NCBI GenBank assembly: GCA_014871385.1
Contig: CM026426.1
Span: 35,775,918 to 35,839,917, forward strand
Length of the DNA: 64,000 nucleotides
From: Ceratodon purpureus
Lineage: Eukaryota > Streptophyta > Bryopsida > Pseudoditrichales > Ditrichaceae
Reading direction: 5' to 3'
Every line of letters begins with the position of its first letter. Positions within the stretch are counted from its first letter, which is position 1. The notes below the pieces were generated by a model, which was not told the origin of the DNA, ran no database searches, and was given only the letters and a program-made list of their open reading frames with translations. This document shows, piece after piece, positions 14,123 through 63,924 of the stretch. The position numbers and the translations under genes are program-made.

Positions 14123-14432
14123 AATTGTAGCCTGCTACTACAAACACCTGTTTCAAAAACAAACAATCAATAAAGAAGAAGAGACTGTCCATACCCCAAG
14201 CTTAAATATTTGTGAAGAAGGTGCTTGGCGCCCTTGAAATCCGGCCAAAAGATCCACAGTTATAGGCTAAAAATAATTTTCTGAAATAGTAATATTTCAA
14301 GAATATTCCAAGAATATTTGAATCTTCAAATTTTAGTTTCTAATTTTAGTAAAAATATATTTGGATTCAAGTCTTCATTCTCTGCTCTCTGCACTCCAAA
14401 TCTCCGCTCTCCACTCGCATACAAGTCTCGTC
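14123..14432 (+). repeat. MULE copy 1, 3' terminal region
   Basis: AT-rich segment ending in a CT-rich stretch of CTCTCTGCTC-type motifs and CGCATACAAGTCTCG. The same order of motifs ends the element at 45.56-45.82 kb, where similarity also stops at AAGTCTCG. I take this as the right end of the MULE; the matching left end was not identified. Confidence 0.55.
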
Positions 14433-42659: not shown

Positions 42660-43772
42660 AGCAAGAAGAAGATCCTATACGACTTAGTAAATAGCACCAT
42701 AGCCTCGAAGGGACACCCCTGCTTGGTCAAAGGCACTAAGAATTTTTTTTCGGTCCTACACTTTTTCCAATTGAATTGAGGACGTTGCTGCCAATCTTTG
42801 TCTTAACATGCTCCATAGATGGTTGAGTTGCAAGGGTTAGACCTTCATGCCTAGATAGTATTTTTGCCAATGCTACTGCAGTTCTTGTTTGGGAGGCTTT
42901 ATCCCTATGAAAGGTGTTATTTCTTTAACTTCTTCAGGAATAAATATTGTCCTAGAACTCTCTAGAATCCTGCAAAATTTACTAATTTGCCCCCTGAAAC
43001 TGCCGAAAATCCTGGTGTTAGATCTGAAACTGCCAACTTAGATCTACTCAAATCCTGGGGGTATTTTCTTAGATCTGATACATATTCCTACTTTCCTTGG
43101 TCTGATCTACAATATCCACTCATTTAAACACCAGATCTACAAGACCCACCAGGTGTTTTGACTTTCCAGCCCCTCAAACCCCTAAAACATGCATTTTTCT
43201 AGATTTACACACAAATCTCTTCAACTCCTTTCTAAATGTCACTATAAATCCTTACAACATCCTGCTCTCTACTACTACTACTGCCGGGACCTCCATGTTG
43301 CACTAGTATTGTCCTACTAGTTGCTCCTAAGTAGTCCTGCACCCCATCCTACCTTCTAACTACATACATACTGGACTAATACCTCTAAACTAACAGCTCG
43401 GACTGAGAGCAAGAAAGAATGAGAGAGAGATAAGGCTGCCATAGCCCTCTCCCCACAACCTCATCCAAAATCCTAGCCGCCGCCTCCAAAACCCTAGCTA
43501 CCGCCTGTTTTCATCTATCCACCAGATATCATCCAACTGACGGGTTTCATCCATCTAGCAATTTTCATCCAAAATTGACAAGTTCATCCAAAATAGAGCT
43601 CTGCAAGCAAGGACAATAACTTAACAGTCTACTGCCCCCCTAGTATCAACAATTTTACTCCTCCTCGACGGTTTAACTACCCCCTAATTCTACTACATGA
43701 AATCCCTGATTAACAATCTCTATGAAGTGGCTGGATTACATGCTTGGCCCGCTTGTTTTGTTGAAGTAATGT
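42660..43772. other. Unassigned interval
   Basis: Nothing supported. A CT-rich stretch at 43.4-43.6 kb has repeated TCATCCA motifs. The right edge is the abrupt start of the MULE fragment. Confidence 0.5.
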
Positions 43773-44570
43773 ACGGAGAAAATTGTGAAGAAAGTGAACG
43801 CTACTGCTGCACCAACCTATACTGGAGTTTGGACCAACATCCGCCGGAACACTTCGGAGAGGCCGGAATTCTTCTTCTATTCTGACAACATCGAAAGGTG
43901 CGTGAAGGGCTCAAGGCGCAAGTGGGTTGCTAAGTACTATGCAACCCTGGAGTAGCCTCCAATTCCAGCCGTCTGGCCTGTCAAGCTCGGGACAAACCTG
44001 AACATCACAGAAATTCATGCACTAGAGGCGGCTGGATCCTAGCTCCCGCAGAAGAGGTCGGTCTCCCCACGACGCCTCTTCTCCTCCGCTCTGCCACTTG
44101 CAAATCTAAGTTCCTTGCTAGTTCCTGTAGATGCTGACCGCTATCCAGGCAAGAGAGACGGGAAGATGGTGAAGCGCACTGCCACTCGCCCTAATCCGCC
44201 GCAGCGACTCTCCATAGGCTCCTCCGACACCCTTAGAGCTCGCACTGTTCTGTCACCATGATACCTCATCCTGGCCATGGTTGCATCATAGGGTTGGATT
44301 CCAGCATTCCACCTAATGTCACGCACTACCAAATCACCATAAGCTCCAACCCCGGTTGCAGTTGCCCAGCATTTCGGAAGACCATGACTAAGTTTCGTGG
44401 GCGGGTCCAATTCTCCTACTCTAAGCACGTATATTTCATCCTATTGAAGGTTTGCAACCGTGATCTCGACGACGACCTTTTCATCCACGCGCCTACCTAT
44501 AGCTTCAACGAGGTCAAGATACTTCTTGAAAGCAGAATCCTGACACACTCTTTAGCAAGAAACTAGGGGG
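43773..44570 (+). pseudogene. MULE transposase, C-terminal part (copy 4)
   Basis: Begins abruptly at the codon equivalent to KKKC of copy 1 and continues with APTYTGVWTNIRRNTSERPE, FYSDNIERCVKGSRRKWVA and, near 44.35 kb, CSCPAF followed by FSYSKHVYFILLKVCNRD. The CxC...KH order is that of a SWIM zinc finger, found in many MULE transposases at this place. It holds the empty site of S1. The missing N-terminal and catalytic parts are exactly what copy 3 at 50.6-53.5 kb still has, in the opposite orientation. Confidence 0.75.
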
Positions 44571-44981
44571 CAGGCTACTTTTAGTCCATGTTCTTTCACG
44601 TGGACAGTGGCAACTAGGTTGCATAGTAGTTGCTATTTGAATTATTCTCTGGATATACATATTTGTATTGTTTTTTTTTTTAATTTAGAGTCCCACTATT
44701 CACATTGATTGACACGCCTAGTAATTGGTCCAACTAATAATGCAATGCATGTCACATTACTACATTCGACCACTTGTACCCTTCACCCCGTTAAGCACGG
44801 AAATATTATAGTAAGTCATCACTTTAATTCAACCAAGAAACTGTTGCAAATAGCTATTTCATTCTCTGTACTTAATGCGTTTAGCTTTGCCCTTTGCATT
44901 CTCAGCATATCTACCAACATCAGACTCTAGTACTTGAGAAGCTACATTCTTGCCCATTTTGGGTTCCACTTTAGGCACTCC

Positions 44982-45314
44982 CTAACCTAGGTAGGGACGT
45001 TTCAATAATGGACTACTCCCACTTGACCCTTTAAGTGCTTCGCTCGAATAAGTCCCGGGTGGGATCTTCCCAACCTTAGAGTATGCATGAGCTGGCAGCG
45101 GCTTCTCCACCTTGTCCTCAACCACTATGATCTCCCTAGGATCTTGTAACACAGAAGGGTCTCTTCCCAACTCCACTCCAACATCAACGACCTCCGGAAG
45201 TGTAAGTGCTTCGCCACATCCAAACAGCTCGTCTTGCCCCTCAACCTCCACGTAAGGTTGAAACGGGCACACAACATGACCAATGGAAACAGCAACCACC
45301 TCGATGTCCTCCAT
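44982..45314 (-). CDS. Second MULE gene (ORF2), copy 4
   Basis: Best-preserved copy of the convergent accessory gene. Starts MEDIEVVAVSIGHVVCPFQP, with an acidic N-terminal half containing PREIIVVEDKVEK and then HAYSKVGKIPPGTYSSEAL and GSSPLLKRP before a stop; weaker similarity continues for about 35 codons beyond. It lies about 410 bases past the transposase end and faces it. No known domain recognised. Conservation of the block in copies with different neighbours suggests that it coded for something when the element was active. Confidence 0.55.
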   Translation of the reverse strand: MEDIEVVAVSIGHVVCPFQPYVEVEGQDELFGCGEALTLPEVVDVGVELGRDPSVLQDPREIIVVEDKVEKPLPAHAYSKVGKIPPGTYSSEALKGSSGSSPLLKRPYLG

Positions 45315-45559
45315 GATCGAGGATCGGTACAAAACAGAAGTGTCCCTTATACAAAACAAAAAGAATGCGGAAATGCAGAAGACATTCCTCTCACCTTGAA
45401 CTCAAATATCTTAAGGCATTGACTCGGCGCCCTAAGATCACGGACATTGCACCAGACACCAACACTCATCAGACGGAATGGGATCAATAACAAGCAGAAA
45501 TTCACAGCAATGCGTCAATTTTTTTATCCACCACCAAAAATATTTAAAACAATAAAACG

Positions 45560-45818
45560 GTAATAGGATCAAAATGTCATGTAGTTTCCTGAATATTTGA
45601 AAAAATTCCACGGTCATAGGTCTTAAATTCAGCTTTTAATAGGTAACAGTTGGAGAATATTCTCAGAATATTCTAATTTTCTAATTTTAGTATCTAATTT
45701 TAGTATCTAATTTTAGTAAAAAAATACTGTTTTTAGATTTTTGACCCCATTTTCTGCTCTCCGCTCTCCATATCTCTGCTCTCTGCTCTCTGCTCTCCGC
45801 TCGCATGCAAGTCTCGCT
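45560..45818 (+). repeat. MULE copy 4, 3' terminal region
   Basis: Repeats the order seen at 14.25-14.43 kb: an AATATTC-rich part, several CTAATTTTAGTA units, then CTCTCTGCTC repeats and GCATGCAAGTCTCG. Directly beyond it the CACTA coding sequence begins, so the MULE end adjoins the truncated CACTA gene. Confidence 0.55.
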
Positions 45819-45835
45819 CTAATGGCATACAAAAG

Positions 45836-47032
45836 AGGCATTCCAGTTTGGATGAAACGGGGAATCCCTTGTCTTTCAAGATTCGTACGTGGTTGTAGAG
45901 CCATCTGTCAAACTTAGGGAATGCCTCTGCCAAGTGTTCTGGATACTGAACTGTGCGATTTTGCTGAGAAGCCCTGAATGCAGCCCGCGAGTTCAAGAAA
46001 GCTTGGCGTTGATCTGTCCACTCACTGCAAGAAGACATCCAACTTGAAAATTTGAGAATAGATTTACTGAAATTCAAGGCACTAAATCTGAATCGGAATG
46101 CATAACACATGTAGAGAAGGGAAGAACTGTCCATACCTTAGTAGTTTAGACGTGTGAACCGAATGCCTGATAACGTAGTCCCGGGCATGGGCCAGTGCAT
46201 CATCCAATAACCTTTTGGGCACGCCTTTCCCGAGCAAGACCTCGCCTGAGTCCCTCATCACTTCCACCGGATCCCATATGCGGCGTCTAGAGTGAGGATA
46301 TAGTGCAAAATACTCAGTACGAAAACCTAGCGATTCCTCTATCATATAGCTAGATGCCATTCCGGCTTCTGGCTTTGACTTGTTTCTAACGAATTTTGTT
46401 AGCACTCCCAGGTACCTTTCGATGCAGTAACACCATCGTGAGTGTACAGGCCCGCACATTTCGAGTTCGTCAACCAGATGGATGACCAAATGTGTCATAA
46501 TGTCAAAAAACCCGGGAGGGAAATGAATCTCAAGGAGAGAGAGTGTCTCTGCTGCGTAGAGGCGAAGAGCAAGAATGGAATCGACCCTGATCGTCTTGGC
46601 GCATATGCGTTGGAATAAATTGCCCACCCGAATTATAGTCTCTCGCACTCCTCGGCTTAGGAGGTTTCGAACAGCAGCAGGCAATATTTGCTGTATTATT
46701 ACATGGTGGTCGTGGCTTTTGAGCCTTGCCAGCCTACTCTCCCCTAGATGTTTTGTGAGAGTGGAACTATACCCAGTCGGGACCTTCGTAGTGGAGACCA
46801 GATTCAAGAATGTATTCCTCTCCTCATCGGTGAACACATAAGGAGCCCTTGGCTTTATGAAATTCCCACCATGGCCTGGCTGTAAGAGGAGGTGCTCCAT
46901 CCTCCCCACCTCCTGCATATCCTGCCAAGTTGAAATAGAGTCCTTCTCTCCAAAAAGGTGTCGTAAAATGTTGTCTGAAACATTTTGTTCTATGTGCATA
47001 ATGTCCAACGTATTGCGCATAGGTAGTTCCTG
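45836..47032 (-). pseudogene. CACTA transposase TNP2, C-terminal exons (DUF4218-like)
   Basis: Follows an in-phase acceptor (TTTTTCAG). The exon begins RNTLDIMHIEQNVSDNILRH, the hallmark segment of TNP2, and continues through EERNTFLNLVSTTKVPTGYS and SHDHHVIIQQILPAAVRNLL into the DUF4218 region: AAETLSLLEIHFPPGFFDIM, LVIHLVDELEMCGPVHSRW, YLGVLTKFVRNKSKPEAGMA. A further exon near 45.84-46.03 kb reads TVQYPEHLAEAFPKFDRWLY and is cut off by the MULE terminus. The 330-codon main exon has no internal stop, so decay here is recent. The enzyme would excise CACTA elements in the nucleus. Confidence 0.88.
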
Positions 47033-47706
47033 AAAAATGTGCAAAATATCAGTCAGTATTTGGACAGACATTCCTTTCGGTACTTGAGTGAACTTGTCAC
47101 GTAATTATAAAAAAATACAAACATGTTAGTATCCCATTTGCAGTGTCCATGCACTTAGAATAACGATACCCTCGGATATTGGGAAAACGTCTCACAGTGG
47201 GGCACAGGGAATTAAATATTCTTTCAATGTTCGGATACAGCACACAAGTCATCCGGACACTTCCTATGACTAACGCGGGTACAAGTGCTTCTGACGTAGG
47301 AATGTTGGACCGTTGCTTTTCCCAAGTTGTGGAACATGAGTATCACAATATAAAAGGCGAGCAGGGTGTTTGTTTGCAGAATGAGAGACCGCATTTTTTA
47401 AAAATTCCGCAGCTTTGTTAGACCAGAATATTTACTAGACGGACTTTCTCTCGGATCCCTAAAACAGTTCATGTTACAAATTTGATTGGCATTTCTTACG
47501 ATGGAAAGAGCAAAGGCCAATTTGAGACAACACAATATCCAGACAAGGCAGTGCTCCCAGGGACACCAGGTAGACTCTAGACCTTAAACTCGGATGTTTA
47601 ACAGACACTAGTTGGTATCTTTGCTAGCTTCACAGAATTGCTAAATAACACATATCAGACTTTACATATGCTCTTAAAAATTCAATCTCACGTAATCAGA
47701 TTAATC

Positions 47707-48106
47707 CATTAGGAGAAAAATGAGCTCAAAATAAGGCCGTGTAAGCCTGCCCTTTCTAGGTGAACTCCCTACTTTGGGCACCTCTGCCGCTGGCAGCGGA
47801 TGCCAGAGTTGCTGCCCGCACAGAACTGCGTGGCGCACTCACAACAAAGGTCCTCGGAATATTAGGTGAGACATGAATGCCTCGGCTCGGGCTTTGGTCC
47901 CAAGTGGGCAGGTTGTGTCAGCCCGACACTGTAGATGTGCCCTCCACACGCCTCCCTTGGAGGTCATTGGTTCGAGCCCCCGTGGCGGTTGCTGGCACCA
48001 CGGTGGCACCTCACATGCCATGTCAAAAAGTACGCGGGCAGCGCCCGTTTTTTTCTCTCACGTGCCGCTTACACGGCCTTTTTGTGACCTGATTTTTCTC
48101 CTAATG
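47707..48106 (+). mobile_element. Family S TIR element with tRNA-like core, copy S2
   Basis: A 400-bp copy in the large intron of the CACTA gene. Ends CATTAGGAGAAAAAT on both sides. On this strand an A-box-like TGGTCCCAAGTGG (47895-47907), a CGCCTCC...GGAGGT stem and a B box GGTTCGAGCCC (47969-47979) appear in tRNA order, although farther apart (about 60 bases) than in a true tRNA. This suggests a SINE-derived or tRNA-derived core inside a TIR element. No obvious target-site duplication. Confidence 0.85.
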
Positions 48107-48395
48107 ATTCGTAAACCACAATACATCCATGCTTGGAAACTCCCACTAACGCTGGCTAAATGGCACTAGATTCCACTGAGCTAACCAAATTACGAGAGCT
48201 ACATCCTTAGGCAAGAGACAGACAGCACTAGCTGGACTTGGTACTACTTCTAGCTGGTGCCGGCAGGTTTTAGAGGGAAAGCCTGACATGATGATTGGCT
48301 GTCTAGGTTCAATTGCAAGGTAACAGAAGGGTACTGGTCATGACTGCGGCAAAATAACGTAAGAGAGCAATTGAGGTATGAAAATTTCTGACCTT

Positions 48396-49355
48396 CCAGT
48401 ACGGTAGTTTAAAGAGAGAGGAAACCCTCTTAATTCCAAACCTCCTTGTTGGATCCTCGGAAGGTAGACCGCCACCTCGTTGCAAGTAAGACTCCTTCAG
48501 ATGTCCCCACCTTAATATGTCATTTGATGTGACTCTCTGAGGAGGGTCACGGTGTTCTGGTCTTCCATTGAAATCCCGAAGATTGCTCCTCCATGGATGA
48601 CCGCAAGGATGCCACCTTCGATGTTGGTCATGATAGACATTCTTGTGTAACGCCCTCGACTTGCGTGAGATGGTTTTTTCAGCATATATAGGACACCCAC
48701 GATAGCCCTTTGTAACACAACCAGCCAGTATTCCATAGGCTGGAAAATCATGGATTGTCCACAGTAGAATAGCCTTCATGTTGAATTCACGCGACCCCTC
48801 ATACATGGCTGCATCCTCTGTTCTAACTCCCTCGTTCCACAGAATGAGCAATTCATCAAGCAGCGGTTGCAGGTAGGTATCAAAATTGTCCCCAGAAACA
48901 CTTTTCTTACCTGCTATGATAAGACTGAGCATGATAAAATGCCGCTTTGTTGTCATCCAAGGCGGCAAATTATAATTCATCAAAAGGACCGGCGAGGTAC
49001 TCCAAGTAGACAGTTTCACTGAGAACGGATTTACTCTGTCTGGGGCCAGTCCCAACCTAAGATTCCTGTCGTCATGTGCAAATTCTTCTCTGTATCGGTC
49101 ATTGACAAACTTCCACTGCGGGCTGTCTGCAGCTTGTCTCATAACACCTGATTCGCTTAAATTCCTTGCATGCTAGGTCATGTATTGTGCCTGTAAGGGC
49201 GTGCTGAACATCCTAATTAATCGGGGGATCAACGGAAAATGGCGTAGTACTTTGACAGGAACTTTAGCCTTATGGAGAGCAATCACTCCATTATCGAATC
49301 TAGGGTGATTGATGCCAACGGTTTCGAGAGCCAATGTTTCGAAGTTTGCTGGCAC
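48396..49355 (-). pseudogene. CACTA transposase TNP2, N-terminal exon (Transposase_21 type)
   Basis: Reads KVLRHFPLIPRLIRMFSTPL, then a TAG at 49173-49175 where the family has Trp before His-Ala-Arg, then ADSPQWKFVNDRYREEFAHD, RNLRLGLAPDRVNPFSVKLS, NYNLPPWMTTKRHFIMLSLI and YLQPLLDELLILWNEGVRTE. It ends SLFKLPYWK at a GTCAGA donor, joining to the exon at 47032 as is usual for TNP2. The 1.36-kb intron hosts S2. Residues such as FNMKAILLWTIHDFPAYGIL and GYRGCPIYAEK are typical. Only one stop is seen, a G-to-A-type change. Confidence 0.87.
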
Positions 49356-49557: not shown

Positions 49558-50597
49558 GTCCGCTGGCAGCAATTACGAATTTGAGCAGGAAGCAGATGCA
49601 AAGGTGTTCTTGTAACTCCTACTGCGGTGGACTGAAGAAATACTGTAAGTGACGTCTTCCCTATGATAAGTTCTGGTTGTGTTCCACAATACTAGGGTAG
49701 ATAATGCTCTTCATTTCATTTTGCAATTTCCTTCAGTGGCTATGGTATAGGGTTTGGCTGTTGACAACTCTGGAGTCTTGGGTACTTGGCCATCATAAGA
49801 AGATTTTTATTCATATTGTAGTACGTTCAGAGCCATTGAGAGCTTCAAACACTACGGATTTCTGGACTCTCGATGGCAGCAAGAGTGTCGGAGCGTTCAA
49901 GCTACATTTTCCAAGTTTCACTTGATGCACGCTATGCACCACTTATTAGGCTATGTTTGTTGCGATGTGAGCAACCCTGTCCATCAATGTTTCTAGCGCG
50001 GACGGCAGCTAGAGATACAAACATTGACTTGTGGACCGATGGCAGCATTTACCTGGTTGATCTAGGAATAGGGAGGCCACCTCCATTCAAAACTCTTAGG
50101 GATTGCCTAGAATTCCTATGCCATGGAGAGCGAGGTCTTTACAGATATGCACGCAGATTGGAGGTTGGTGATGAAGGGGGACCTACACGGTGTGAGTTGG
50201 AAATACAATGCCAGCATTTTGAAGAAGAATTGTGGAAGGTGAGAGATACTAGGCTGGCAGCAAAGTGATGCTTGACCATTACAAAGACAGTGAGGATACA
50301 TGCATGCAGTTGCGGAATGAATTGGAGACTACTCATGACAAGAAGAGTGGCAAAGAAAGGAATTATAACATGATGGTCCAACGCTTGGAGACCGAAATGC
50401 ATCGCTTGCAGCAAGAAAGTGAGCATCTACAGGAAGAGAGTGAGAGCCTACAGCAGAGGGCCAACTTTGAGAAGAACACGCCTTTGGGGATGCGTTGTAG
50501 GGCTCGCTGGCTTAGAAGGATTCATGAGGTGAATCCTTGTTTAAGGGATGCAAAACACATAGTGAAGCTCATTAGAAGAGTGTTGCAACCACATCTT
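49558..50597 (+). pseudogene. Coiled-coil gene Q, decayed and truncated
   Basis: Not recognised. A first exon MSAGSNYEFEQEADAKVFL (TAA at 49613) ends at a GTAAGT donor; later frames give ERSSYIFQVSLDARYAPLIR, NIDLWTDGSIYLVDLGIG and a C-terminal coiled coil (RLETEMHRLQQESEHLQEES) ending with RWLRRIHEVNPCLRDAKHIV. A TGA-type break at about 50268 needs a one-base shift. The frame stops abruptly against the broken end of MULE copy 3. It may be another TE-encoded protein. Confidence 0.45.
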
Positions 50598-50601
50598 GTG
50601 G

Positions 50602-53497
50602 GCCCAGCAGCACTTTGCAGAAGTCCTCAACAATCTTGCGATGTGCCATTCTTTGACGTCAACCTTGGTCTCCTGAACTGCATTCACTTGGCGGATTCCG
50701 ATCTCGTTTCGTGGGGTCTCCGGGATTGTCACGGCATCCTCTGTAGGGGACCCGCCTTTGTCGACCTGCGTGTCATCTTTGGTGACAATGATGGGCATCT
50801 GGGAGGTGTGAGTCCTGACATTACGATCAGGTGCTTTTGGATGAGAGTAGTTTACCTTGTCCGGACGGTGCGATTCTCCCTCAGCTCCAAGGGGTAGGTC
50901 GGGCTTCGGCTTCATGGATCCGAACACTTCCTCTCCAACTTGGCGTGGCAGACGTGTGCAGAACTCGTCTGCTCTAGGCATCTCTAACATGTGGTCTTGA
51001 AGCACATGCGGTCTCCCTGTCAACTTCGCCCTGCGCTCTGCTGCTCTAAGCTTCAATTCCTTCTTGAATGGACCCGTCCCTCCAACTTCCCCTTTCAGAA
51101 ACTGGTAGAAGTTGAGAACTTGAAGAAACGCCCGAACATAGTCATCAACTGTAGCCACGTAGAGGTCGCCGCACTTGTTACCAGAGGGCTGAAGCCATTT
51201 GCTGTGAACAGTTTTAGCAAGGTTACACATAGGCATTTCTGCAAGTTCTTCCTCGGTAAATTTCTGCACATGAAAACGATGTCGTGGTTAGATGTGGTTC
51301 GGCATTTAGAACGGTGGGGGCAACTACGAAGTAGAAATAGGAGTGAATGAGTAAGAAAAAAAAAAAGGTACCTTAGTCATGAAGCTGCCCCACTGGCAAA
51401 ATCTGAAGGCCAGAAACAGAGCTAGAGCTCCAATCTAGCTAGGGCCTTCTCTGAGAGAGTTCCAGTAGAAACCCACCAACCTTTAATTGCGAGGTAGAGA
51501 GTATCCGCTTCCTCCATTGTTTTGGCTGCCTAGTATTGCTGGCACATTTTCTTGTGTTGCTCCCACAGTTCTTCAGGGATATTCCTCTCAATGTTATTGA
51601 CCATGGACTGCGAACAATGGAATAGGCAGGTCCTCTCCCAATCCTCCATACGGTCCTCCTTCTTCCATGTCCCGTACACGATCCGACTTGCATTCCAGTT
51701 GGCCTCTGCGCTGTCCGCCATGAAGCCCTTGAAGTTTGGCGCTGGAACGCCATTCCTCTCCATGACAGCATTTAGGTTTCTCCAAAACAGGATCTGGGCG
51801 TCGCAATCCTCGGACATCATGTCACAGGTAGCAATCGTCATCACCCAGCAGTACGTAGAGTCGTACACGTGGCATGCCAACGTCGTCCAATCGCATACCC
51901 GCTTCACATGGTCAAACATCACCTAGGCGTTCTCGAGATCATCGCCGGGCTGCATCCTAGACACGAGGTAGACACCGCTTTCGGGACCCACTTCCGACAT
52001 CTTGAAGAGGAACACCTTGTCCAGATCTTTACCTTGGCCAGGGAATTTGTTCTCTTGAACATATGCCTAGAGACTGATTCCACGCAGCTTTGTTATGGCA
52101 TCCATAACTCCGTAATTCCTGAACTGACGGAATGACATTACCTTGTTGCAAATGTTCGGAGACGCCATGTCCTTGCACCTATCAAGGACTGGAATAAGCT
52201 CCTCCATAGTGAGTTTCTTGGGAGGTGCATCCTCCGGCTGTAGCAAGTAATTCCCAATTAGAACCTTGCTCGCCTCCAGCACCACAGAGCTCTTCGTTGC
52301 TCGAGGTGTGTTTCCGACCTGTTCTGAGATCAAACTATTGATCTCATCCTTTGAATCTTTGTAGTCGCCAACCTTAACAAAGTGATCGTGAGTTCCAAGA
52401 TGGATACACGCCCTGGTTTGGTTGACTGTACCAGACACGTAAAAAATTCGGGCCCCACAGGTAGCAATGCAGGCGGGGGGTTCTTTGCATACCTTGCATA
52501 CAACCGTGGAATCTTTTGGTGGTGGCAGGTTGACACTGAAGGCTTGAAGTGTGCAGCCGTCGAAGTCGGTCTCGTTCACATCACGAATCCGGGGGCGGCG
52601 TTCCAGAAATGGGCAGTCTTTGTTGATGCAGCGCAGCCATACGACGCAGGTGGAGGATCGGAAAGACAGCCCCAAGTCGTTGGTGATGTTGGTGGTGATG
52701 GTCTTGGTCCAGACATGGCCGTCGTATTGTTTGTCCATTCCTTGCATGGACTTTGCTTGCGACCGTGATGCTCCTAGTGCCGCAGGGGGCAATTCGAAGA
52801 GAACTGGTCCATTGAAAACGGCAGGCAAGTACCCTACTCTCTTGTGTCGCATTCTTGAGTAATTTATTTTTTTCAGAACGTTCTTACTACCAGGTCTCTC
52901 GGCAAGTTTGCGAAGAGAATCGACAATACTGATAGTACTATTCTCTGAAATATGAGAGGAACTGTAGGACTTTACTAGAGGGGGGACTGCGGGCCTAGAC
53001 TCTGCAGCGTCCCGCGTGACAGGAGGGGACGACATAGCAGGACTAGTTTCTTCATCTGAAGAGAGGGAGATGACCGGAGTTTGAAGAGTAGCATCCACGC
53101 CTGACTCTACCTTGACCTTCACGTCACGAGGAAGCGGAGTTTGAACAGTGCAAGTGGAGGGTTGACGAGGAGTAAGAATCTCTGTAGACGTCTGCATCTG
53201 CGAATCGGTAAGTCCATAAACTCTATATGTACCTGGATACAAGTGCCAGTACAGAATTCCATCGTCACCCCTCTCGGACAACTGACCTAGAGTGTGAGTG
53301 ACCTCAGTTGTTATCTCGTCAAAAATCTCCTCCTCGACCCTGATTGTATCCTCTCTAAAAGTGAATCTCATACTTAGGTGCTGGGAGGACACGCTAGCCA
53401 TACCATCGGCACAAGTCTAAAAAGAGAGAGGGATTCCAAGGCCGTGAGCATAAAGGACGACTGTGCCTTGGACTTCCTGAGGAGCTGCGCAGGCCAT
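50602..53497 (-). pseudogene. MULE transposase copy 3, N-terminal and catalytic parts
   Basis: Best-preserved MULE copy. Starts MACAAPQEVQGTVVLYAHG; stops at 53417 (TAG), 52067 (TAG), 51923 (TAG) and about 51530. Order: N-terminal domain with EITTEVTHTLGQLSERG; acidic linker with LSSDEETSPAMSSPP; DGHVWTKTITTNITNDLGLS and a Cys-rich finger (VWLRCINKDCPFL, CKVCKEPPACIATC, RACIHLGTHDH); linker; catalytic region with HVYDSTYCWVMTIATCD and FKGFMADSAEANWNA (candidate Asp at about 51861 and 51714); intron 51371-51264; second exon KFTEEELAEMPMCNLAKTVH. The Trp codons at the 52067 and 51923 stops are intact TGG in copy 1. The SWIM part is missing: the gene is cut after KCCWAHK. Confidence 0.85.
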
Positions 53498-54036: not shown

Positions 54037-54096
54037 CAGAGCTGAAGTTCTATAGTGTCTTTTATTGTGAGGAGGATCATTAGCTTACATAGACAC

Positions 54097-54537
54097 ATGA
54101 AGGATAGTGGAGGGTATACTCCCTCCACTTATGTCACTCCTAAACCGAGAAGAAAACCATGTAAGACAGATTTTACGAATAGGAGAGCGAGAAAGAGGAG
54201 AGCATCACGTAAGAAGGTAGATTTGAAGGCTGATCACTTGAGTGCACCATTGAAGAGGAGAGGAGCGGGTCTGCCTGTAGCCTTGAAGTTTTGTAGCATT
54301 CGTAAACTCATCCTAGACAGTATAGTTGAGGTGAAGGAAGAGATCTTGGAAGACAATGGAGCAGCAAATCAGGAGCACGAGATACCTTGTAGTGGGGTAC
54401 GACTTGAGGAGCATATCGAAGACTTAGAAATTAATTGTAGTCAAAGAGTAGAATCCCCGCAGCCGTCGTTTGGGAAGAAGGATTCACGCTCAAGGGATAT
54501 GCATTCACAATCAGACGAAGATTGTCTCTCTGAACTG
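54097..54537 (+). CDS. Unknown gene P, first coding exon
   Basis: 147 codons from MKDSGGYTPSTYVTPKPRRK to a clean GTAAGT donor in phase 0 after DEDCLSEL. The N-terminal third is very basic (KTDFTNRRARKRRASRKKVD), as in nuclear proteins; the rest is acidic and Ser-rich (VEVKEEILEDNGAA, RSRDMHSQSDEDC). No recognisable domain. No stop interrupts it. Following exons were not identified: 54.6-55.3 kb shows no continuing frame. The ATG is chosen for its distance from the TATA box; the frame is open upstream to about 54055. It could be a host gene exon, or an accessory gene of the adjacent MULE. Confidence 0.5.
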
Positions 54538-55330
54538 GTAAGTGTACGTCACTGTCTTAGCAAATGTTTTTTATGGTTGGCCAACAACTTTATGTTATGT
54601 TAAGCAAGTTATTTTAGAATAATCTAAACTATATTCTACATTGAACCAGCTAATGAACGTAGAGGGATATTATAGTGTACAATAGTCTACGTTGACTCAA
54701 AGCAGTCGAGTACTTGTTTGGATCAATAGAATAAACTTATTATAAGCAGTTTTTTAAACAAGCTCAAGCGATAAGTTTCAGTGAATTCAGATCATTTGTA
54801 GGTTTAGGGTATAGGGGTTGTGGGGTACTTCAGTATGTAGTTTAGAAAGGAAGAACTTACTCTCGCACCTTTGACTGATTGGATATGAGTACCTGTAATT
54901 GTCCATATTAAATTTCCTAGTACATCGAGTGGTCAGCATGAAATTAACGGGGCTGGGAAACATTCGTTCAAATAATCGATGATAGCAAGCGAGAATCAAA
55001 TAAATTATTGAGGCACTAATTATTTGACAAGGGCCCGTAATTGCTTCGGGCTGCCTGCGAGGAACTTCAGTTTCGTATTGTTCACGTGAACTTGATGTTA
55101 AAGTCAATTACTAGGTTGGCTAGTAAAAGTCAATGGGCGTCCTTGTATTGACTTCGGCCCGGCCTCTAGATCGCATTGCCATCTGGATAGGTGTGATGAG
55201 ATTTTGATATCGACTCATAGAAACCTTGTTTGGGTTGACTGGACTCTTTTGTGGCACTCAGAGATTTTGCATAGAGGGAGAGGAGGGTGAGGAATTGCGA
55301 GGGTGCGCGAGGAGGGTTCGAGCCGCAATC

Positions 55331-55518
55331 ATGGAGGCTGGCAGCGACTCTGATGGTGGAGCGGGCCGAGGCATTGCGGAAGACGATGGCAGGGTGATGC
55401 ATGCCGATGGAGGAGGGGGATTTGATGGGCCAGGAGAAGCCACCGACACGGAGGAGTCTTTAGGAGGTGGGCAGGATATTGAGCGAAATGGTGGAGACGA
55501 CGACGACGACGACGAAGA
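55331..55518 (+). CDS. Acidic Gly/Asp-rich exon-like frame
   Basis: Starts MEAGSDSDGGAGRGIAEDDG, continues Gly- and Glu-rich, and ends in a run of six Asp at GAG followed by a possible GTATTC donor. GC-rich compared with its surroundings. It could be the first exon of the ParB-methyltransferase gene downstream; low complexity makes this uncertain. Confidence 0.35.
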
Positions 55519-55966
55519 GGTATTCTAGTAACTTGACCTTCTTGGTTGTAAGCGGATTTGGGTTGTTTAGAAGGGTTTGATTCTTACAGATTGCGTCTTT
55601 ATTGTTTGTGGGTTGTGGGTTGTTCGAGGGTATCGGGTTCTTGGTTGCTTGCGAGTATGGGGTTCTTCAGTGCTTGCGATCTGTTTTTGAATTTTAGAGT
55701 GGGCAGATTGTGGGTGTTGCGGATTCTTGCGCTGCTCTTGGTTAGATGGATTGCATTGCTTGTAACGAGCTGTGAGTGTTGATGTATCTTGGCTGGTTTG
55801 TTCTTAGTGGCCCGCGGCTTTGGACTGTCCATCCGCAATGAGTGGCCACCCGGGAGCAAGCTAAGCGTAAGTGTAAGTCCAATGCTGTTACCTCAAGTAA
55901 TGCCGCCGGTAGCGGGGGATACCAATGGGTTGTTGCTGCGAGTGACTTGTGAAAAGAAGGAATAGC

Positions 55967-55983
55967 TACCTGGTTGATCCTGC
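55967..55983 (+). other. 18S rRNA 5'-end fragment
   Basis: TACCTGGTTGATCCTGC is identical to the first 17 bases of eukaryotic 18S rRNA; the match then breaks (A instead of C). The preceding 150 bases (GC-richer, with GAGTGGCCACCCGGGAGC) could be the end of an external transcribed spacer. Not a functional rRNA gene. Confidence 0.6.
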
Positions 55984-56115
55984 AAGATCGATCCCCACAA
56001 AATTGTAAATTAAATCTGAATTTTTTGAAGATGTCTCCGTTTTTTTATTGGTATTTTTTTAATCTTTAAAAAAAAATGGCCCCAAGCCTACTGTCGGCAA
56101 CATACCTCTCTAGTG

Positions 56116-56370
56116 TACATGCCTACATCCCCGGTGTATAAGCCTTCCTTCCCGGGCTACATGCCCACGTCTCCTCCACAGGGCTCACCACCTATGTCTC
56201 CACCCTCTCCTTCCCCGCCTATTAGAGTGAGGAGGCCAGCCCATGTGGTCTTTGTTCTTCCAGCAATTTTGCCGTGCTCTGTCCAACAGACCAGGCAATT
56301 TTGGAGGAGGCGCCGTCACTGGAACTGTAGACAGTCTAAGGAGTACTACAGTCGTGCATCACGTAGATAG
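56116..56370 (+). CDS. Pro-rich exon with CTD-like heptads, probable 5' exon of ParB-methyltransferase gene
   Basis: Reads VYMPTSPVYKPSFPGYMPTS followed by a Pro/Ser-rich stretch. Three units fit YxPTSPx or a close variant, the heptad of the RNA polymerase II large-subunit C-terminal domain. After the repeat the frame becomes Arg-rich, and a second frame is also open, so a frameshift is possible. No clean donor was found before the next exon at 56513. It is placed with that exon by proximity and strand. It may also be independent low-complexity sequence. Confidence 0.4.
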   Translation, partial: YMPTSPVYKPSFPGYMPTSPPQGSPPMSPPSPSPPIRVRRPAHVVFVLPAILPCSVQQTRQFWRRRRHWNCRQSKEYYSRASRR

Positions 56371-56512: not shown

Positions 56513-57685
56513 GTTATTCAAACACAAGATGTGTTGGTCAAACCATCTTGTCTGATAAACTTGAAGAGTGCTAGAGAAGGGGAATTGCAACATCAAAAAC
56601 AACACAAGGTGGACTCTATAGCCGTCATCAACAACCTCAGGATCAAGCCATCGCAGAAGTCCCGAATGTTGGTGCCCTTGTGGAGGATGATCCCAATGGC
56701 CAAGGTTAGACCAGTGGGCAAAATAAGGGTACAGCATTTGGAGCAGGAGTTTGTTAAGGGCTATAGAGATGGGGACCGCGTCCTGTACATCTCTATGTAC
56801 AACAACGAAGAGCAGACAAGAGATGTTACGGATGAGGTCATGGCCGGTTGGAGCCCATTATGGAGGGACACGAATGATGCTTTTGAATATGAGATTCAAA
56901 GAGACAAGGAGTGGTCGCGATTCTCGGGCAAGATGTTTTTTGTCTGGGAAGGTAACCATCGCCTCTCAGCATGGCTACGTCATATCAACAAGCACCACGC
57001 AGACGACCCATCATGGCACATATCTGTGCACTGCATAGTACTAGACCCCCGCGGCCATGTTGGAAATCTTCTTCACGCAATGCATGACATCAACTGGTAT
57101 ATACGTGTGGTTTTTTTCTTGTTTTTCCATTTTGTAATCTATCTTATCTCTATTATTCATCTTACGTATTTTATTTTTCAGGCCGCCAGAGAATGACCAC
57201 GTCAAGAGTAATCTCCCTGCAAAATTGTTTCGGATCCGCTCATTCGGAATGATGAAGCTGGAGGAATTTAAAGACCTCCTCAGTCCCGAAGAATTCGATG
57301 CATGTTTGAAGAACAAGCCACCTAATCCCTCGTGGTTTCCCTTGACAACTAAAGTTTTCATTGCATTTTTGTAGCGAGTAAGTTCTACCTCCTCCCTCTC
57401 TTTGCTCATTATTATTCAAAAATCATGGAATTCCCTAAGTTATAATTATCTTTCTACAACGGGAAATTGCAATGGCCTTGGATGAAGCAGCCAGGGCCTA
57501 CCTCAACAAGACACCCGAGGATGAGTAGTCTGCAGATGCGGTTTGGGATGTCATAAATGAGGCATCAGATAGCATGATCGAAGCCATATAAAAGAAGGAC
57601 TTTACCAAGTACTTGGCCATTGCAAATCCTAAGAATGGTGTGGGATCCGAGGAACTCACAATAAACCGGAAGAGCCTCATCCGGA
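56513..57685 (+). pseudogene. ParB/sulfiredoxin-like domain, exons A-C of a methyltransferase-fusion gene
   Basis: Exon A (56513-57096) begins after TTTTGGCAG: QTQDVLVKPSCLINLKSARE, QKSRMLVPLWRMIPMAKVRP, RDGDRVLYISMYNNEEQTRD, then WEGNHRLSAW (56945-56974) with WHISVHCIVLDPRG after it. GNHRLxAW matches the GxxRxxA core of ParB/Srx-like domains. A phase-2 GT-AG intron leads to exon B (57182-57377, LFRIRSFGMMKLEEFKDLLS), which carries a TAG at 57372 just before a GTAAGT donor. Exon C (from about 57463) has lost its acceptor AG and bears TAG at 57526 and TAA at 57589. In bacteria and phages such domains often sit beside DNA methyltransferases, as here. Confidence 0.6.
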
Positions 57686-58003
57686 GTTAGTATTCCATTG
57701 ATTTTTCATTGTTTTGGTTAATTAGGTAAAAACTAGCTAGACACTAGCTGCATTAGGAGTTAACGCAAACCGGATACTCCAGAAACCTTAAAACAGTTAA
57801 CGCAGGAAGTATTCTCGGAACCTTCATGCCAGAAACTCGGAAGAGAAAACACGGAAAGGGTTGACGATTCGAGAACTGACCGTTACTGTAACCGCGTCTA
57901 GGATCCGAAACGACGCGGAAGTCATCATGACTCGGATAGGCGTCTAGTTCGGTACGGTGGCGGCTGCAATTACGGGCCGCCGCAGCGTTTATGATGCCCT
58001 GGG

Positions 58004-58010
58004 TATATAA
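58004..58010 (+). promoter_or_regulatory. TATA box of E3
   Basis: TATATAA about 150 bases before the ATG of the gag-like frame, the same spacing as in E1. Confidence 0.65.
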
Positions 58011-58161
58011 GCGAGGATGTTAGGGTTTGGAGTTCCTTTTTGCGGACTGGGAGTAGAGAGTGAAAGAGCGGTGAGGTGTCTTGTCTTTTCCGATTCACTG
58101 GCAATTGGATTGCCGGGTTTCTTGCTATCGGATCGCAAAGGGAGAGAAGTGAGACGTAGAA

Positions 58162-60384
58162 ATGGCGCACGTTCAGTGTAGAGTTCTTAGTCCCGGCACT
58201 CCGGTGAGAGAGTCGGATATGGAAGAGTTGATCGCCGATCTCACCCGGATGAGGTGCCAGGGTTTGCTATCACGACCGTGGTTGCTGAAGAATGAGGCGA
58301 TGGTGAGGGAGGTCCTGGACAGACCGGACAATAGGTGGGACAATACGATCCGGGGCAAGCCCACGTTGTGGAATGCGGAACAGTGGGCGGAAACTTACGA
58401 CTTCGAGCAGAATGGACTCCTTTGGGCAACCCGGACGGATAGGTACGTGCAGGATAGGTTTCACGGGAAGATCCATAAGAATAACGGATACGAGATAGAC
58501 GCCTGCAAGGATAGGAGACAGAGACAGGTCTTAGCCTTCTTCGTTCCGATCCTGTATCCGCTGAAACCGGAACAGGTCACCATTACGGTCGGGAACACCA
58601 TCTTCGGAGCGTACACGGGGGAACGTCCGGTGAATTGGGCCGCGCTCATAGCGGAAACCGTGCAGAAGATGGTGCCATCGATCGGAAAGAAGCCGACCCC
58701 GATCAGCCCTTTTCTCTACCACCTTTACCACTCGTATAGTTTGCTGAGGGAGAGGGAGGAGGAGGATTATACGACGGCGAAGAACTTCCTCACCTTTGTT
58801 GAGGTTCCACCAGATATGGATGTCGAACCGCACGGCAAAATCTCGGATACAGCGTCCACGGAACAGGATGATGATACAGCGAACATTCCGAATCCCGACG
58901 CTACGAAGGCCCACTCCAAGTAACGATCGGAACGCGCTGCATCGCAGCACGCGGAGCCCTCCACGGCCCGGGGAGATACGGAACGGAAGGAGGTCAGTTC
59001 CGAGCGGGGATTTCCGGTTGAACTATTCCGGGGAATTCGGGAGGAAACTTATCGGGCGCAAGCCTCTTACGATCGGATCGAGACACTGTTTAGGAGGGTC
59101 TGTACATCTCTCGGGGCCTGTTTACCAGTGGAGGTGATCCGAGAGGTAGAGCTTTTGAAGGATGCCCCGAAACTTCGGAGTGAGAAGAAGCAGTTGGAGC
59201 TTCTGTTGCAGGAGCTTACTATGGAACTGGCGACGAAGAGTGAGGAGATCCGGAAGTTCCATGCCGAGCAAGAGGAGACCTTGGGTGAGCTTCGGAAGTT
59301 GCTGGGGAATTCGGGTGCTGTAATCAACAACGCCCGGTTGTTCGACGAGAATGTTTTGCAGCCTGCAGATTTGGAGAACAAGCAGAAGATCATCACAATT
59401 CTCTCCAAATGCGAGCACTCGATGAACCAGATTCTAAAGAAGGTTCGGCAGTTGCTCAATCCGGGAGTCGGAAGTCCCAGCGTCGGAACCGTTTGTCGGA
59501 ACCACCCGTTTCATGGATCTCCCTCCCGGACCGTTGTAGGGGAATCTCGTGGGGTAGGGTTCCGGACCCCAATAGAGCGCAACCTCCAGCTTGAGGAGCA
59601 GATGGCGGTCGACGCGGATATCTTCAAGCCGGCTCGGACGATCGCAGATATGATCCGGGAACACCAAGGACAGGTGGCATCACCCGGAGCCAGCACGGTT
59701 CAGCAAGGCTGCACGATCCCCACCGGTCTGGCGGAGGTGACAGGGACTACAGTCACCGTTAGGCGATCCAAAGAGCGGACGATTATGGAAGAGGTGACCC
59801 AGCCCGTGCAGCCGGATGTTCTCCCAACACTCGGATCGTCCGTGATCATGCTGGCTTATCAAGGAGAGGTAGCAGGAGCGGAATGGGGACGAGCCATTTC
59901 ACCAACCGGACGGACCCGAGTGATTCAGGAGGGGGCACTTACCCCTTCACCCACAGCCTAGACCGGAACGGTGACTCATACCCCCACCGGAACGCCAGTG
60001 GTGAACTCCTCTGCTGACAGTTCCAGTGCTCGGAGAGTTTTGAGGAAGAGGAAGGATCCGACAGAGAAGGGCCCCATTACGATTTCCGGTTCCGACTCGG
60101 AAACCTATGCGAGCTCTCTGGTTGGGACAGCCGGAACTGGGACTCGGACCCCTACGACCGGAAATCCTCCTGCGCATATGTTGCCAAAGTCTCCCAATTC
60201 TCCCAAGAACCGAATCGTTACCCGGCTGTCCTTGGAGGCCCAAACGAAGGAGTCAAAAGCGGAACGGAGTGCTAGGCGTCAGGCGGAGCGGGCAACGAGG
60301 GCAGGAGGATCCGAGCCACGGATGACCAGGTCGAAGGAGAAGGACCGCGAGCAGGAGAGCCACAAGAAGACGAAGATGGGGTAG
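58162..60384 (+). pseudogene. E3 gag-like protein, 740 codons, two stops
   Basis: A single frame from MAHVQCRVLSPGTPVRESDM to a basic end (SKEKDREQESHKKTKMG), broken only by TAA at 58921 and TAG at 59959, both one transition from Gln codons. N-terminal region: LLSRPWLLKNEAMVREVLD, LWNAEQWAETYDF. Core: ILYPLKPEQVTITVGNTIFG followed by PISPFLYHLYHSY, aligning with the E1 block PEKPKRVTIKFA / FLIHLYRHKG. Then a Glu/Lys-rich coiled-coil stretch (RSEKKQLELLLQELTMEL), a Ser/Pro/Thr-rich part, and the basic tail, which may bind nucleic acid. The longest readable member of the family. Gag-like assignment is by layout. Confidence 0.68.
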
Positions 60385-61183
60385 ATTCCTCTCGCTGCAA
60401 CTGGCGTGAAGTGTGAATGATCTGTGAAGGATATGAGAGTTCCGCTGTAGCTCGGATAGGAAGGTGATGGGAGTTGTGACGAGACCCGAACCGGAAAGGT
60501 AATGGGATTGAGCGGAAAGATTTAGTGGATTGTCGTAGGAGTGAAGCCTCACTGTTCCGTCCCAAACCCAACCTCACGCGGAATAACCGTCGCTAGGGTC
60601 GAAGCGGATCGAGGGGTACTTGATCGGGCTCCCTGAACTTCTGAAGAGGTTCCGTACACTGTGAGAGGGGGATTCGGAACGTGGTACGGGTTGCCTAGGG
60701 ATAATCGGATCCTCGTTCTCTCAGAGCCGGATTGGTTTGTCGTTGTAGTCTCACGGATCGGAAAAGGTCGTTTGTGTTACCTGCTGGTCAGAGTACTCTA
60801 GGACAGTTGTGAAACGATAGCTGTTCCGAGACGTTGGGGTTTGTGGACGAAACACCTGACAAGAACGAGAAAGAGAGATAGAGATAGTCGAGGAGTTACG
60901 TTCCGGGTACACTATCCGAGCAGGGGCAAGGCTCGGAACTATTATAAGTAACTACTTGGTGAAACACTATTGAATCCATGTACGATACTCGGGACCTAGT
61001 GACAATACGGAAGTTTACGCTCAATTAGAGTGCTATCCGGATGTTAGTCGCGTTTCCGTGTTCCGACAAATGGTAACGACTTCCTCAATAAGGGGAGTCC
61101 CTCATCATTGTCTAGTTAAATATTTTGTATCACTACAACAACTTCTGTATTAATACTTATTAAACCTTCGGTACTTCTTGCAG

Positions 61184-62486
61184 ATCAATCCCCGTTTAAT
61201 TGACAATAATAAACTTGAGATGTCACTCGATAAGCTTCAGAAGATTGTTCGAGCGGCCGTTGAGGCCAAATACAAGGCTCGTTGGTTGAGGTGGCAGAAC
61301 TCATCTCCGAGTTCCCAAAATTCTTACAGATTTCTGCCAGCTGAATCCAAGGACACCGACTTCAACCCATGGTTGAACAAAGCTTCATTCTGGGCTGGGG
61401 TAAGTTTCATAAAAAATCCTTTCCAATTCCTTGTTCCTTTATTATCTCACTGATTTCTTTCTCGTCGCTATTGATATGAATTTTGTATTATAGTTGGAGG
61501 AAGCCGTCATCAACGAAGTCGAGGACATATTCAAGGCGGAGAACCTCGATATCAATTGGAGGGCATTTCCTGATGACCAACAGCCGGGCGATTTTGTCGA
61601 GAGTTCACGTATTCTGTTGTGGGACAAGGCCTTCCCTACGTTCATTGGAAAAAAGGCTGAGAAGCCCTTGGATAAGAAGTCCAACTTCGCTAAATTCCCT
61701 GGAACCGCTCAAGTTGTCAAGCGGGTTACTTACCGGTACGTTACCTAACTTAATCGCATTTGCATTTCATAATTTTCATTCTACTTATTTCTTATACCAA
61801 CCTTCTAAATGTCTTCTCTTAGGTACTTCAAGCGAGAGCTTCTATTGAAGGGGGCCATCACAATCCAGCAGCTCCCCAAGTACTTCAGTGCTTGGATGAT
61901 GAGAAGCTCGGACCAGTGTATCTATTCTCCACAGCAGTTGAAAAGGTACAAAGCTACTCATCTGGATGCTAGATGCTGGTATCTTGATTGTATTGGTGGT
62001 TTCACTATTGACTCGGAGGCGGACGTCAAGATGCTACACGATGGGGGTGAGGTGGTGGTCGAAGACTCCGTGGATAATGCAGAGGATCACAAAGGACAGG
62101 AGGATCAATCTTCTGCTCGTCCACCGAAGAGAGGGAGAGGAAGGCGACTCAAATCTCTGCGTTCTCAGTCACAGCAAACAAGTGCGGAGTCTTCGGCGCT
62201 AGGTCAGAAGGCACCTGAGCCCTCTCCAGGTAATGTCGTTACGAAGCCATCTCCAACTTCATCCCCGGCTCCTTCCTCGATCAGTGCTTCCAAGATCACC
62301 AGAGGTCTCCTTGAGCAGAGGAAGGCCAAAAAATTTCCGCAAACTACCTCTTTAGCTGGAACTCCTCATTCCGCACAGGTCTATGTCATCAACTCCTTCG
62401 TGGACTGAGTTTTGCTTCGACACAAGGAGCTCTCCGACAAAGGTGGCGATCACAAATGGAACAAGGCTCTAGACATCGCTAGAAAG
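61184..62486 (+). pseudogene. ParB-methyltransferase gene, middle exons D-F
   Basis: Exon D (61184-61399) follows CTTCTTGCAG: RLIDNNKLEMSLDKLQKIVR, KDTDFNPWLNKASFWAG. Exon E (61494-61735) joins in phase 0 (LEEAVINEVEDIFKAENLDI), exon F (61823-62486) in phase 2 (YFKRELLLKGAITIQQLPKY). All three have standard GT-AG borders. Exon F contains a long linker, acidic then Arg/Lys-, Ser- and Pro-rich (PPKRGRGRRLKS), probably a nuclear-localisation and flexible region, and a TGA at 62406 that could come from CGA. The region has no domain that I recognise; by position it lies between the ParB-like and methyltransferase parts. Confidence 0.6.
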
Positions 62487-62574
62487 GTATGATTTGTTTC
62501 TCAGTCCTTTCACTTCGATACGTACAATGCTATAAATCTTATAGTGTCTAACTCTATTTTCTTGTTTTCTCAAG

Positions 62575-63924
62575 TTTGGAGCAGGCCGCGAAAACCGAGT
62601 TCCGTCAAGATGCAAAGAGCAGAATCACTTGGGATTCGACTTGATCATAGCCGACATTCCTAAGAATCTTCTGGTCCCTACGATATCCAATTCCCCCTAC
62701 GTCATTCCATCTTGGAACAAATGTGATAAGGAGTATTTTGAGGAACTCTTCGAATTTGCAAGACATCTCTTGCAGTATGATGGTGCTCTTTGCATAATCC
62801 ACAACAACGAACAAGACTGGCTTCGAAGATTTCTGAAGTGGCTACAGTTGATGGCTTCGTGCAGCACCGAGACCGGTGGGGCTTCAATGCACTACGCTTG
62901 GCTCACCCTACGATCCCCGGCTCCTTGGTATGTACATCATAATCATTCCTTGTCTTTGCATTCTACTAATCTGTCATTCTTATTATTTACACTCACATAT
63001 TCTGGTGTCTTGCAGTCTCTTCGATTCGGGATGCGCGTCTTCATTTGTGGTGGTCATCCTCCATCCAAGTTCTCTTTTCAAACGAAGAAATCCGATGTCA
63101 TATACAACGACTTCCACATAACCGAGAGTGATGCCATTCTCAACTTCACCGACATGGAATCGCAGCACATGAATGGGGAGGTGCCGTGGAGAGGGCCAAG
63201 GGAGAAAGCCCCTGAGATGATGCAGGGCATAATTGAGGAAATGTCCAAGCCCGGTGACATAGTCTTCGAGTGGATGGCAGGAACAAGTAATCCTTCATTA
63301 ACATTTTGTGCATTTCCGATCCTCTGCTTTTCTTCACAGTTACTCACTTCTTTCTTGTGCTACGTGTTTCAGGTGCCTCCATCAAGGCTTGCCAGAATAT
63401 TGGCCGTCATATTATAGCTTGTAAGGAGGACGAAGCCTTATTCAACGCCCTTCTCAAACCGTACATGGCTACGTCATCCGCCATGGGCCCTCCAAAACAT
63501 CCTTGACCGGCAGCAGTTGAAGACGCACCTCCAAAGAGAGCAAGACGAGATAAGTACTGTAAGTTCTTCTTTACTTCTCTTCGCTAGTTCTCTTTGCTTC
63601 TTTACTGATTCCATCTTCACCCACTTAAACTTACCACTCTTGATTTTCTCTTGCAGAGTAGTTGCGGCAACACCGCCACGTAGGCCAACACCCGTGTGTA
63701 TTCCATCGTGGCGTCTTCATTCCAGTCCGATTCAGCCTTTTATACTTCCGGAATATGCAGAGGGCTTAGCACAAGCGCTCCAATCTGGAGCCCTTACATA
63801 TGTTCCTAGTCAGCCAACTACTTTTGATCCCAAGGCCCTTGTATTCGTCGATGAAGAGGCTGTAGAAGGAGATTTAGAGTCCTCTGGTTCTGAGAGTAGA
63901 AGTAGCGATTGTAGCATGTTGTGA
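62575..63924 (+). pseudogene. DNA amino-methyltransferase-like domain (beta class), exons G-J
   Basis: Exon G (62575-62927) has GFDLIIADIPKN, in place of motif IV ([DNS]PP[YFW]), then YFEELFEFARHLLQYDGALC as in motif V-type helices. Exon H (63016-63286) holds FGMRVFICGGHPPSKFSF, EKAPEMMQGIIEEMSKPGDI and motif I as VFEWMAGTS (family: DPFxGxG). Exon I (63373-63558) continues ACQNIGRHIIACKEDEALF. Motif order IV then I, and the KxxExxxxxI..S.PGD lead-in, are those of beta-class N6-adenine/N4-cytosine methyltransferases. The second Pro and aromatic of motif IV are missing. TGA at 63504; one-base slips near 63016 and 63657. Exon J ends ESSGSESRSSDCSML. Confidence 0.62.

Follow-up and report, generated by a model that had tools for sequence, protein, structure and literature searches.

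The closest described counterpart of the system reported here is the VANC protein of Arabidopsis VANDAL transposons, which, as described in two reports, binds a nine-base motif that is tandemly repeated in non-coding DNA of its own element, the VANC introns included, and causes hypomethylation (PMC5735166; PMC10398659). Our system lies on contig C6 of the moss Ceratodon purpureus, within a stretch of 64,000 nucleotides (C6:35775918-35839917, referred to as the window) whose plus strand carries a gene joining a possible ParB/Srx-like domain to a methyltransferase-like domain. This gene is, with near certainty, carried by a DNA transposon of ~17 kb with terminal inverted repeats (TIRs). Two features are newly found: heptads that resemble the C-terminal domain (CTD) of RNA polymerase II and on which purifying selection acts, and a palindrome array upstream.

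Like VANDAL, the moss element combines a transposase with an accessory gene and has tandem repeats of a motif in its non-coding DNA, repeats that would also occupy accessory-gene introns if a weakly supported first exon holds. The two differ in that the moss motif is a palindrome of 24-26 bp and the moss protein has CTD-like heptads; to our knowledge, no ParB or methyltransferase domain is known in VANC. The methyltransferase-like domain has the motif order IV then I of CcrM, M.DpnA, rotifer N4CMT, and the Marchantia N4-methylcytosine (4mC) enzyme, and a Pfam N6_N4_Mtase match of moss members likens it by family to the beta-class amino-methyltransferases, whereas its motif IV is degenerate and its gene resides on a plant transposon. 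The phage and bacterial ParB/Srx-plus-methylase systems (Bce_0392; A1L_85 and A1L_87 of Anabaena phage A-1(L)) share the arginine of GNHR/GNNR and have the methylase as partner or neighbor, but no significant match links them to the moss gene, which is eukaryotic and intron-split, with a multi-exon linker.

The gene lies on a multicopy transposon with inverted ends

Comparison of copies placed the right end at ...GAACTTTCCCC and the left end at GAGGGAGACTTG..., which are imperfect inverted repeats of each other. The TIRs measure ~60 bp and are roughly 87% alike in two copies, and target-site duplications of 11 bp and 9 bp flank the only two copies with both ends read, one on C11 (duplication GACATAACATG, element of 16,676 bp) and the other on C5 (TCTTTGCAG, 17,493 bp), the lengths being computed from the places of the ends. 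At the guessed right-end places of three other copies, other DNA was found and no paired ends. The related copies, the ends, and the duplications bear out the proposal, made in the first-pass annotation, of an intron-bearing gene multiplied in a mobile element; the gene described there is present, yet it is one gene within a ~17-kb transposon rather than a unit of its own.

As a composite of several copies, the left part of the element consists of a transposase-like gene on the minus strand, a small basic open reading frame (ORF), a putative acidic exon 1, and the palindrome array. The right part starts with a small exon that precedes the heptad exon; next come the ParB-like exon, the linkers, and finally the methyltransferase exons. 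Near the right end, locus L049 carries an antisense ORF of 226 aa (5073-5753, minus strand), which gave no match in a Pfam search and whose intact form was recovered from L049 alone by our search pattern. The transposase-like ORF of L060 showed a SWIM match at 0.014, under the cut-off, and no MULE-domain match was found for the transposase-like ORF at E values up to 10. Of the features that define Mutator-like elements (MULEs), the transposon has TIRs and a target-site duplication of 8-11 bp. On the basis of its inverted ends, its 9-11-bp duplications, and a transposase-like gene with a sub-threshold SWIM match, we class the element as MULE-like. A retrotransposon was ruled out by the introns kept in copies, the inverted-repeat ends, and the 9-11-bp duplications.

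The paralogue count suggested earlier was then obtained from the 362-Mb genome (151 contigs) with the ParB-like exon, exon A. Among 1,893 first-look candidates, 150 were scored, and all 150, the window included, are 83-100% identical, 137 being free of stops and 13 containing them; a single-copy host gene is thereby ruled out. Forty-three of the 150 lie on C6, near the genome share of this 110.5-Mb contig (the other eleven chromosome-size contigs with a printed length measure 16.5-29.0 Mb). A second subfamily (L009-L016), about 40% identical, is also multicopy: L012 and L013 agree at 95% across 7.5 kb, and L010 and L011 at 92-95% in three pieces totalling 8.9 kb, introns included in both cases. 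In this subfamily, exons A and B are not separated by an intron and motif I is uninterrupted as well, and the domain order is identical in both diverged subfamilies. Across a compared stretch of 1.6 kb, the copies L041-L045 (C3, C6, C9, and C10) share ~98.6-98.8% identity with L042, a near-identity that indicates recent activity.

Exon layout and damage of the window copy

At 56.5-63.9 kb, the plus strand of the window holds ten exon-like blocks with GT-AG at most borders, in agreement with the initial description. The series is not a chance one, because homologous exons keep the same order in related copies; this shared order and the 150 scored exon A matches rule out a chance assembly. The exons recognized at first are real, but the gene starts further upstream, with heptad-repeat and acidic exons. 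The element copy begins with its left piece, which is inverted (43763-45819), and extends via 50599 to ~65404, beyond the window end, the right end being placed in window coordinates from locus L052. Its features are as follows, with the basis in parentheses (dN/dS, ratio of nonsynonymous to synonymous substitution rates).

43763-45819, minus strand: left terminal piece of the transposon, inverted, left end at ~45819, closing with the terminal repeat GCGAGCGGAGAGC (92% identical to 652-2702 of L060 in reverse complement; SWIM-like transposase end at 44237-44566)
50599-53416, minus strand: transposase-like gene, disrupted, with VYDSTYC, GFMADSA, and a C/H finger with GTHDHPV (90-91% to L057/L060; ORFs at 52067-53416, 51530-51922, and 50541-51287)
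54046-54603, plus strand: small basic ORF (MKDSGGYTPSTYVTPKPRRKP...), maybe an upstream exon (common to L057-L059; dN/dS median ~0.29)
55208-55519, plus strand: putative acidic first exon, ...RRVRAAIMEAGSDSDG...DDDEE then GT (common to L057-L059)
55987-56102, no strand assigned: palindrome-unit remnant (left arm GCCTACTGTCG at ~56086-56096, cut at 56102)
56103-56367, plus strand: heptad exon, CTD-like, truncated, YMPTSPV-like repeats then a basic tail (fuller in other copies)
56516-57097, plus strand: exon A, ParB-like domain, VWEGNHRLSAW (aligned to other copies)
57183-57380, plus strand: exon B, one in-frame stop (homologous exon order)
57460-57638, plus strand: exon C, interrupted by the insertion, two in-frame stops (homologous exon order)
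57639-61068, plus strand: later insertion of 3,430 bp, outside the gene proper (TG...CA ends; 5-bp duplication AATGG at 57634-57638 and 61069-61073)
61185-61400, plus strand: exon D (homologous exon order)
61495-61738, plus strand: exon E (homologous exon order; dN/dS 0.263)
61825-62487, plus strand: exon F, low-complexity linker, one in-frame stop (homologous exon order)
62574-62929, plus strand: exon G, methyltransferase motif IV region, LIIADIPKN, holding GFDLIIADIPKN (sequence, alignment)
63017-63289, plus strand: exon H, methyltransferase up to motif I, GDIVFEWMAGTS (sequence, Pfam, alignment)
63375-63560, plus strand: exon I, methyltransferase C-terminal part, one in-frame stop (sequence, Pfam)
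63659-63924, plus strand: exon J, acidic C terminus, stop at 63924 (homologous exon order)

The gene copy in the window is thus broken, with five in-frame stops (by our exon borders), the 3.4-kb insertion, and loss of its 5' part.

Heptads and selection on the exons

In the copies printed, the heptad exon encodes ~4-6 YMPTSPV-like repeats and reaches 18.6 bits with Pfam RNA_pol_Rpb1_R, against a cut-off of 20.3 (E 0.0021). The repeats follow the Y-x-P-T-S-P-x pattern of the RNA polymerase II CTD, but they are few, their second residue is mostly M and their seventh V or G, and they belong to a transposon protein.

Purifying selection acts on the exons of the gene, heptads included. The dN/dS values are medians by the simple Nei-Gojobori method over pairs that are not independent, and they are lowered because the search design excludes any sequence that has a stop within the stretch searched. 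The median was 0.116 for the heptad exon (20 sequences, 176 of 190 pairs used), 0.161 for the ParB-like exon (27 sequences, 323 of 351 pairs used, all below 1), and 0.062 for that of the second subfamily (7 of 21 pairs usable). Methyltransferase pieces gave 0.10-0.45 (usable pairs 2/3, 3/6, 2/15, and 6/28); exon E has the value listed above (10 sequences; 39 of the 41 used pairs below 1), and exons F and J gave 0.374 and 0.476. For the transposase parts, the medians of 0.31-0.39 (4 sequences, 4 of 6 pairs each) lie above those of the heptad and ParB-like exons; the search pattern recovered no sequences of its N-terminal part. The small basic ORF gave a median of 0.291 (4 sequences), and putative exon 1 gave 0.213 with 3 of 5 pairs below 1, which is weak evidence of selection.

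Palindrome arrays upstream of the ParB-like exon

The upstream array is built of ~210-bp units, each with the palindrome (G/A)CCTACTGTCG-TCAA-CGACAGTAGGC or one near it. Allowing up to 4 substitutions, loci L053 to L059 contain 6, 16, 11, 16, 9, 10, and 9 palindromes, respectively, some of these arrays being clipped by locus ends. Six of these seven loci have a unit spacing of ~210 bp, with three odd spacings in L056 (259, 201, and 170), and L053 is irregular throughout; the regular arrays have no spacing of ~420, hence no sign of a unit that lost its core. Between loci, the 24-bp core is 97.6% identical versus 55% for the flanks (75 of 77 units, the two without flanks being left out), although core identity is biased upward because units were chosen by core. 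The exact 24-mer occurs 1,706 times genome-wide (758 and 948 on the two strands), and its reversed control 0 times. By our grouping, 100 of the 1,706 places form 12 arrays, 11 of which end 1.0-1.2 kb upstream of an exon A match; the twelfth, at C1:28.27 Mb, has no exon A match among the matches listed. In the window, the array has shrunk to the remnant of one unit, to which pieces of L018, L019, L020, and L026 and the arrays of L053-L056 are similar. Adjoining this remnant, at 55967-55983, is TACCTGGTTGATCCTGC, which we take to resemble the start of 18S ribosomal RNA.

The ParB-like exon

All seven aligned members of exon A carry a GNHRL signature, in which R is invariant. The ParB domain initially assigned to this exon is not established, since the signature is accompanied by sub-threshold matches only. 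Among profiles, these were to DndB (0.015, one of seven members) and UzuA (0.011, three of seven), and the best match in the PDB was a ribosomal protein (0.027), taken as unrelated. When phages were searched by tblastn at E values up to 10, three Anabaena/Nostoc phage records were retrieved (best E 0.2), two of them with a ParB-like annotation and the third hypothetical; HTH_ParB at 0.051, under the cut-off, is the only ParB match of the phage ParB-like protein itself. In one of these phages, an N-4/N-6 methylase is encoded two genes beyond the ParB-like gene; its relatives Nostoc phage N1 and Anabaena phage Elbi have no annotated methylase in the 3-kb flanks, where several genes are hypothetical. 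No bacterial relatives of the exon were found in genome-contig and plasmid collections. With regard to a viral origin, a pattern-plus-tblastn search of IMG/VR revealed no relatives of the two domains, but the search was weak, because it also missed any relative for the phage ParB-like protein. The structure prediction suggested as a check yielded a useless single-sequence model (predicted local distance difference test score, 33.6). Exon A possibly encodes a ParB/Srx-like DNA-binding domain.

A possible VANC-like role

Since the moss element shares the VANDAL plan, with other parts, we tentatively regard a VANC-like role as the most likely, in which a protein encoded by the element would bind the repeats of its own element for anti-silencing or for control of transposition. 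The gene would then be an accessory gene of a ~17-kb MULE-like transposon, and its product, in which CTD-like heptads are combined with a methyltransferase fold and a DNA-binding domain that is possibly ParB/Srx-like, would bind the element's palindromes in trans, with a geometry like that of ParB on parS and a logic like that of VANC. Once bound, the protein may mark or clear chromatin at the palindromes, an effect that would counter silencing or license transposition, and the heptads could attract factors whose usual target is the polymerase tail. The more specific version, a parS/ParB-like self-recognition by a eukaryotic DNA transposon in which the protein would load on arrays of its own palindrome and its CTD-mimicking heptads would recruit the host transcription machinery and leave all copies unsilenced, appears unlikely.

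If true, this would be a further plant transposon, beside VANDAL, that recognizes its own copies via a protein-and-repeat pair, here built from prokaryote-type parts (a methyltransferase fold and a possible ParB fold) and a polymerase-tail mimic. Because palindrome and domain form short, separate units, the idea of such recognition is directly testable, and the many similar copies offer a ready readout for methylation and expression. No such element was recognizable among the literature titles listed, those on 4mC included, with most subscription journals outside the coverage.

Several observations weigh against self-recognition by this protein. Searches of Pfam, NCBIfam, PHROGs, and PADLOC gave nothing significant for ParB, and hhalign with the phage ParB-like family, aligned on the signature, stayed sub-threshold at 4.8% probability (E 0.0083). 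No convincing palindrome was seen in eight second-subfamily loci of 9.5-9.9 kb, which reach only ~0.3-1.3 kb upstream of exon A, and allowing up to 6 substitutions gave just five loose matches, in L009 and L015, none of them palindromic. The location of the array inside an intron depends on the weakly supported exon 1, and no border is fixed at the junction of the heptad exon and exon A. Furthermore, it may be the transposase or replication that makes use of the palindromes. That the array is a transposase or replication/recombination site, to which the ParB/methyltransferase-like protein is unrelated, we consider somewhat unlikely: the arrays do lie within the element, and subterminal transposase sites are common in TIR elements, but measurement of three copies put the first palindrome 7.5-7.7 kb away from the left end, so that it is not terminal, the termini carry their own GAGAGCG repeats, and the arrays stop ~1 kb before the ParB-like exon.

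The methyltransferase-like domain

Judged by sequence comparison, the C-terminal domain is a relative of beta-class N6/N4 methyltransferases, as had been proposed. Pfam N6_N4_Mtase matched all seven members at an E limit of 10 (best 2.9e-10; 27.6 bits for the window protein, cut-off 26.7), and profile alignment extended over 27-236 of 254 positions for CcrM and over 182-242, the C-terminal part, for DpnA. Profile searches, envisaged in the first-pass annotation for both domains, thus succeeded for this one and gave no significant match for ParB. A tblastn search with the window domain over 50,697 phage records (E up to 1) retrieved 197 records, all <60% identical; the best 20 of the 197, with E values from 0.02, are Streptococcus phages, mostly annotated as methyltransferase.

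The motif IV consensus (D/N/S)PP(Y/F/W) is absent from both subfamilies: the sequence is DIPE in L047, L049, L050, and L051, DIPK in the window, and DQPF, DQPY, or DTPF in the second subfamily. Because motif IV is devoid of an aromatic residue in all five members read, base methylation by the window subfamily is doubtful and has probably been lost, which puts in doubt the earlier suggestion that the protein might modify DNA; a non-catalytic reader would fit better than a DNA modifier. A working N6-adenine/N4-cytosine methyltransferase, aimed at the palindromes by the ParB-like domain and marking element DNA, is accordingly hard to reconcile with DIPE and DIPK, and we hold it to be quite unlikely, even though the profile match spans most of the domain for CcrM, GTG of motif I is kept in L050/L051, D and the aromatic residue of motif IV are kept in the second subfamily, and dN/dS is below 1 in the methyltransferase exons (few sequences). 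In the aligned second-subfamily members, S replaces the first glycine of motif I, which also argues against it, as does rotifer N4CMT, whose activity is reported to be abolished when S and Y of SPPY are replaced (PMC8885841). A captured passenger gene without a role for the element is very unlikely: MULEs do tend to pick up host gene fragments, according to one report (PMC6446971), but exon order is shared and dN/dS is low across many copies, and both diverged subfamilies keep the domain order.

Other features of the window

The insertion in exon C (57639-61068) contains two long ORFs of 253 and 345 aa, for which a Pfam search gave no match, and no direct repeats of at least 40 bp were found in it. 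Between the two parts of the element copy, at 46082-49172, are CACTA-like transposase ORFs, one of which (46085-47104) matches DUF4218 at 1.6e-30; we presume this transposon to be of the CACTA type. A second, diverged (69-74%) left-end and transposase region of the same kind as that of our element lies at 10950-14411 in opposite orientation, and further similarity is present at 5730-6254.

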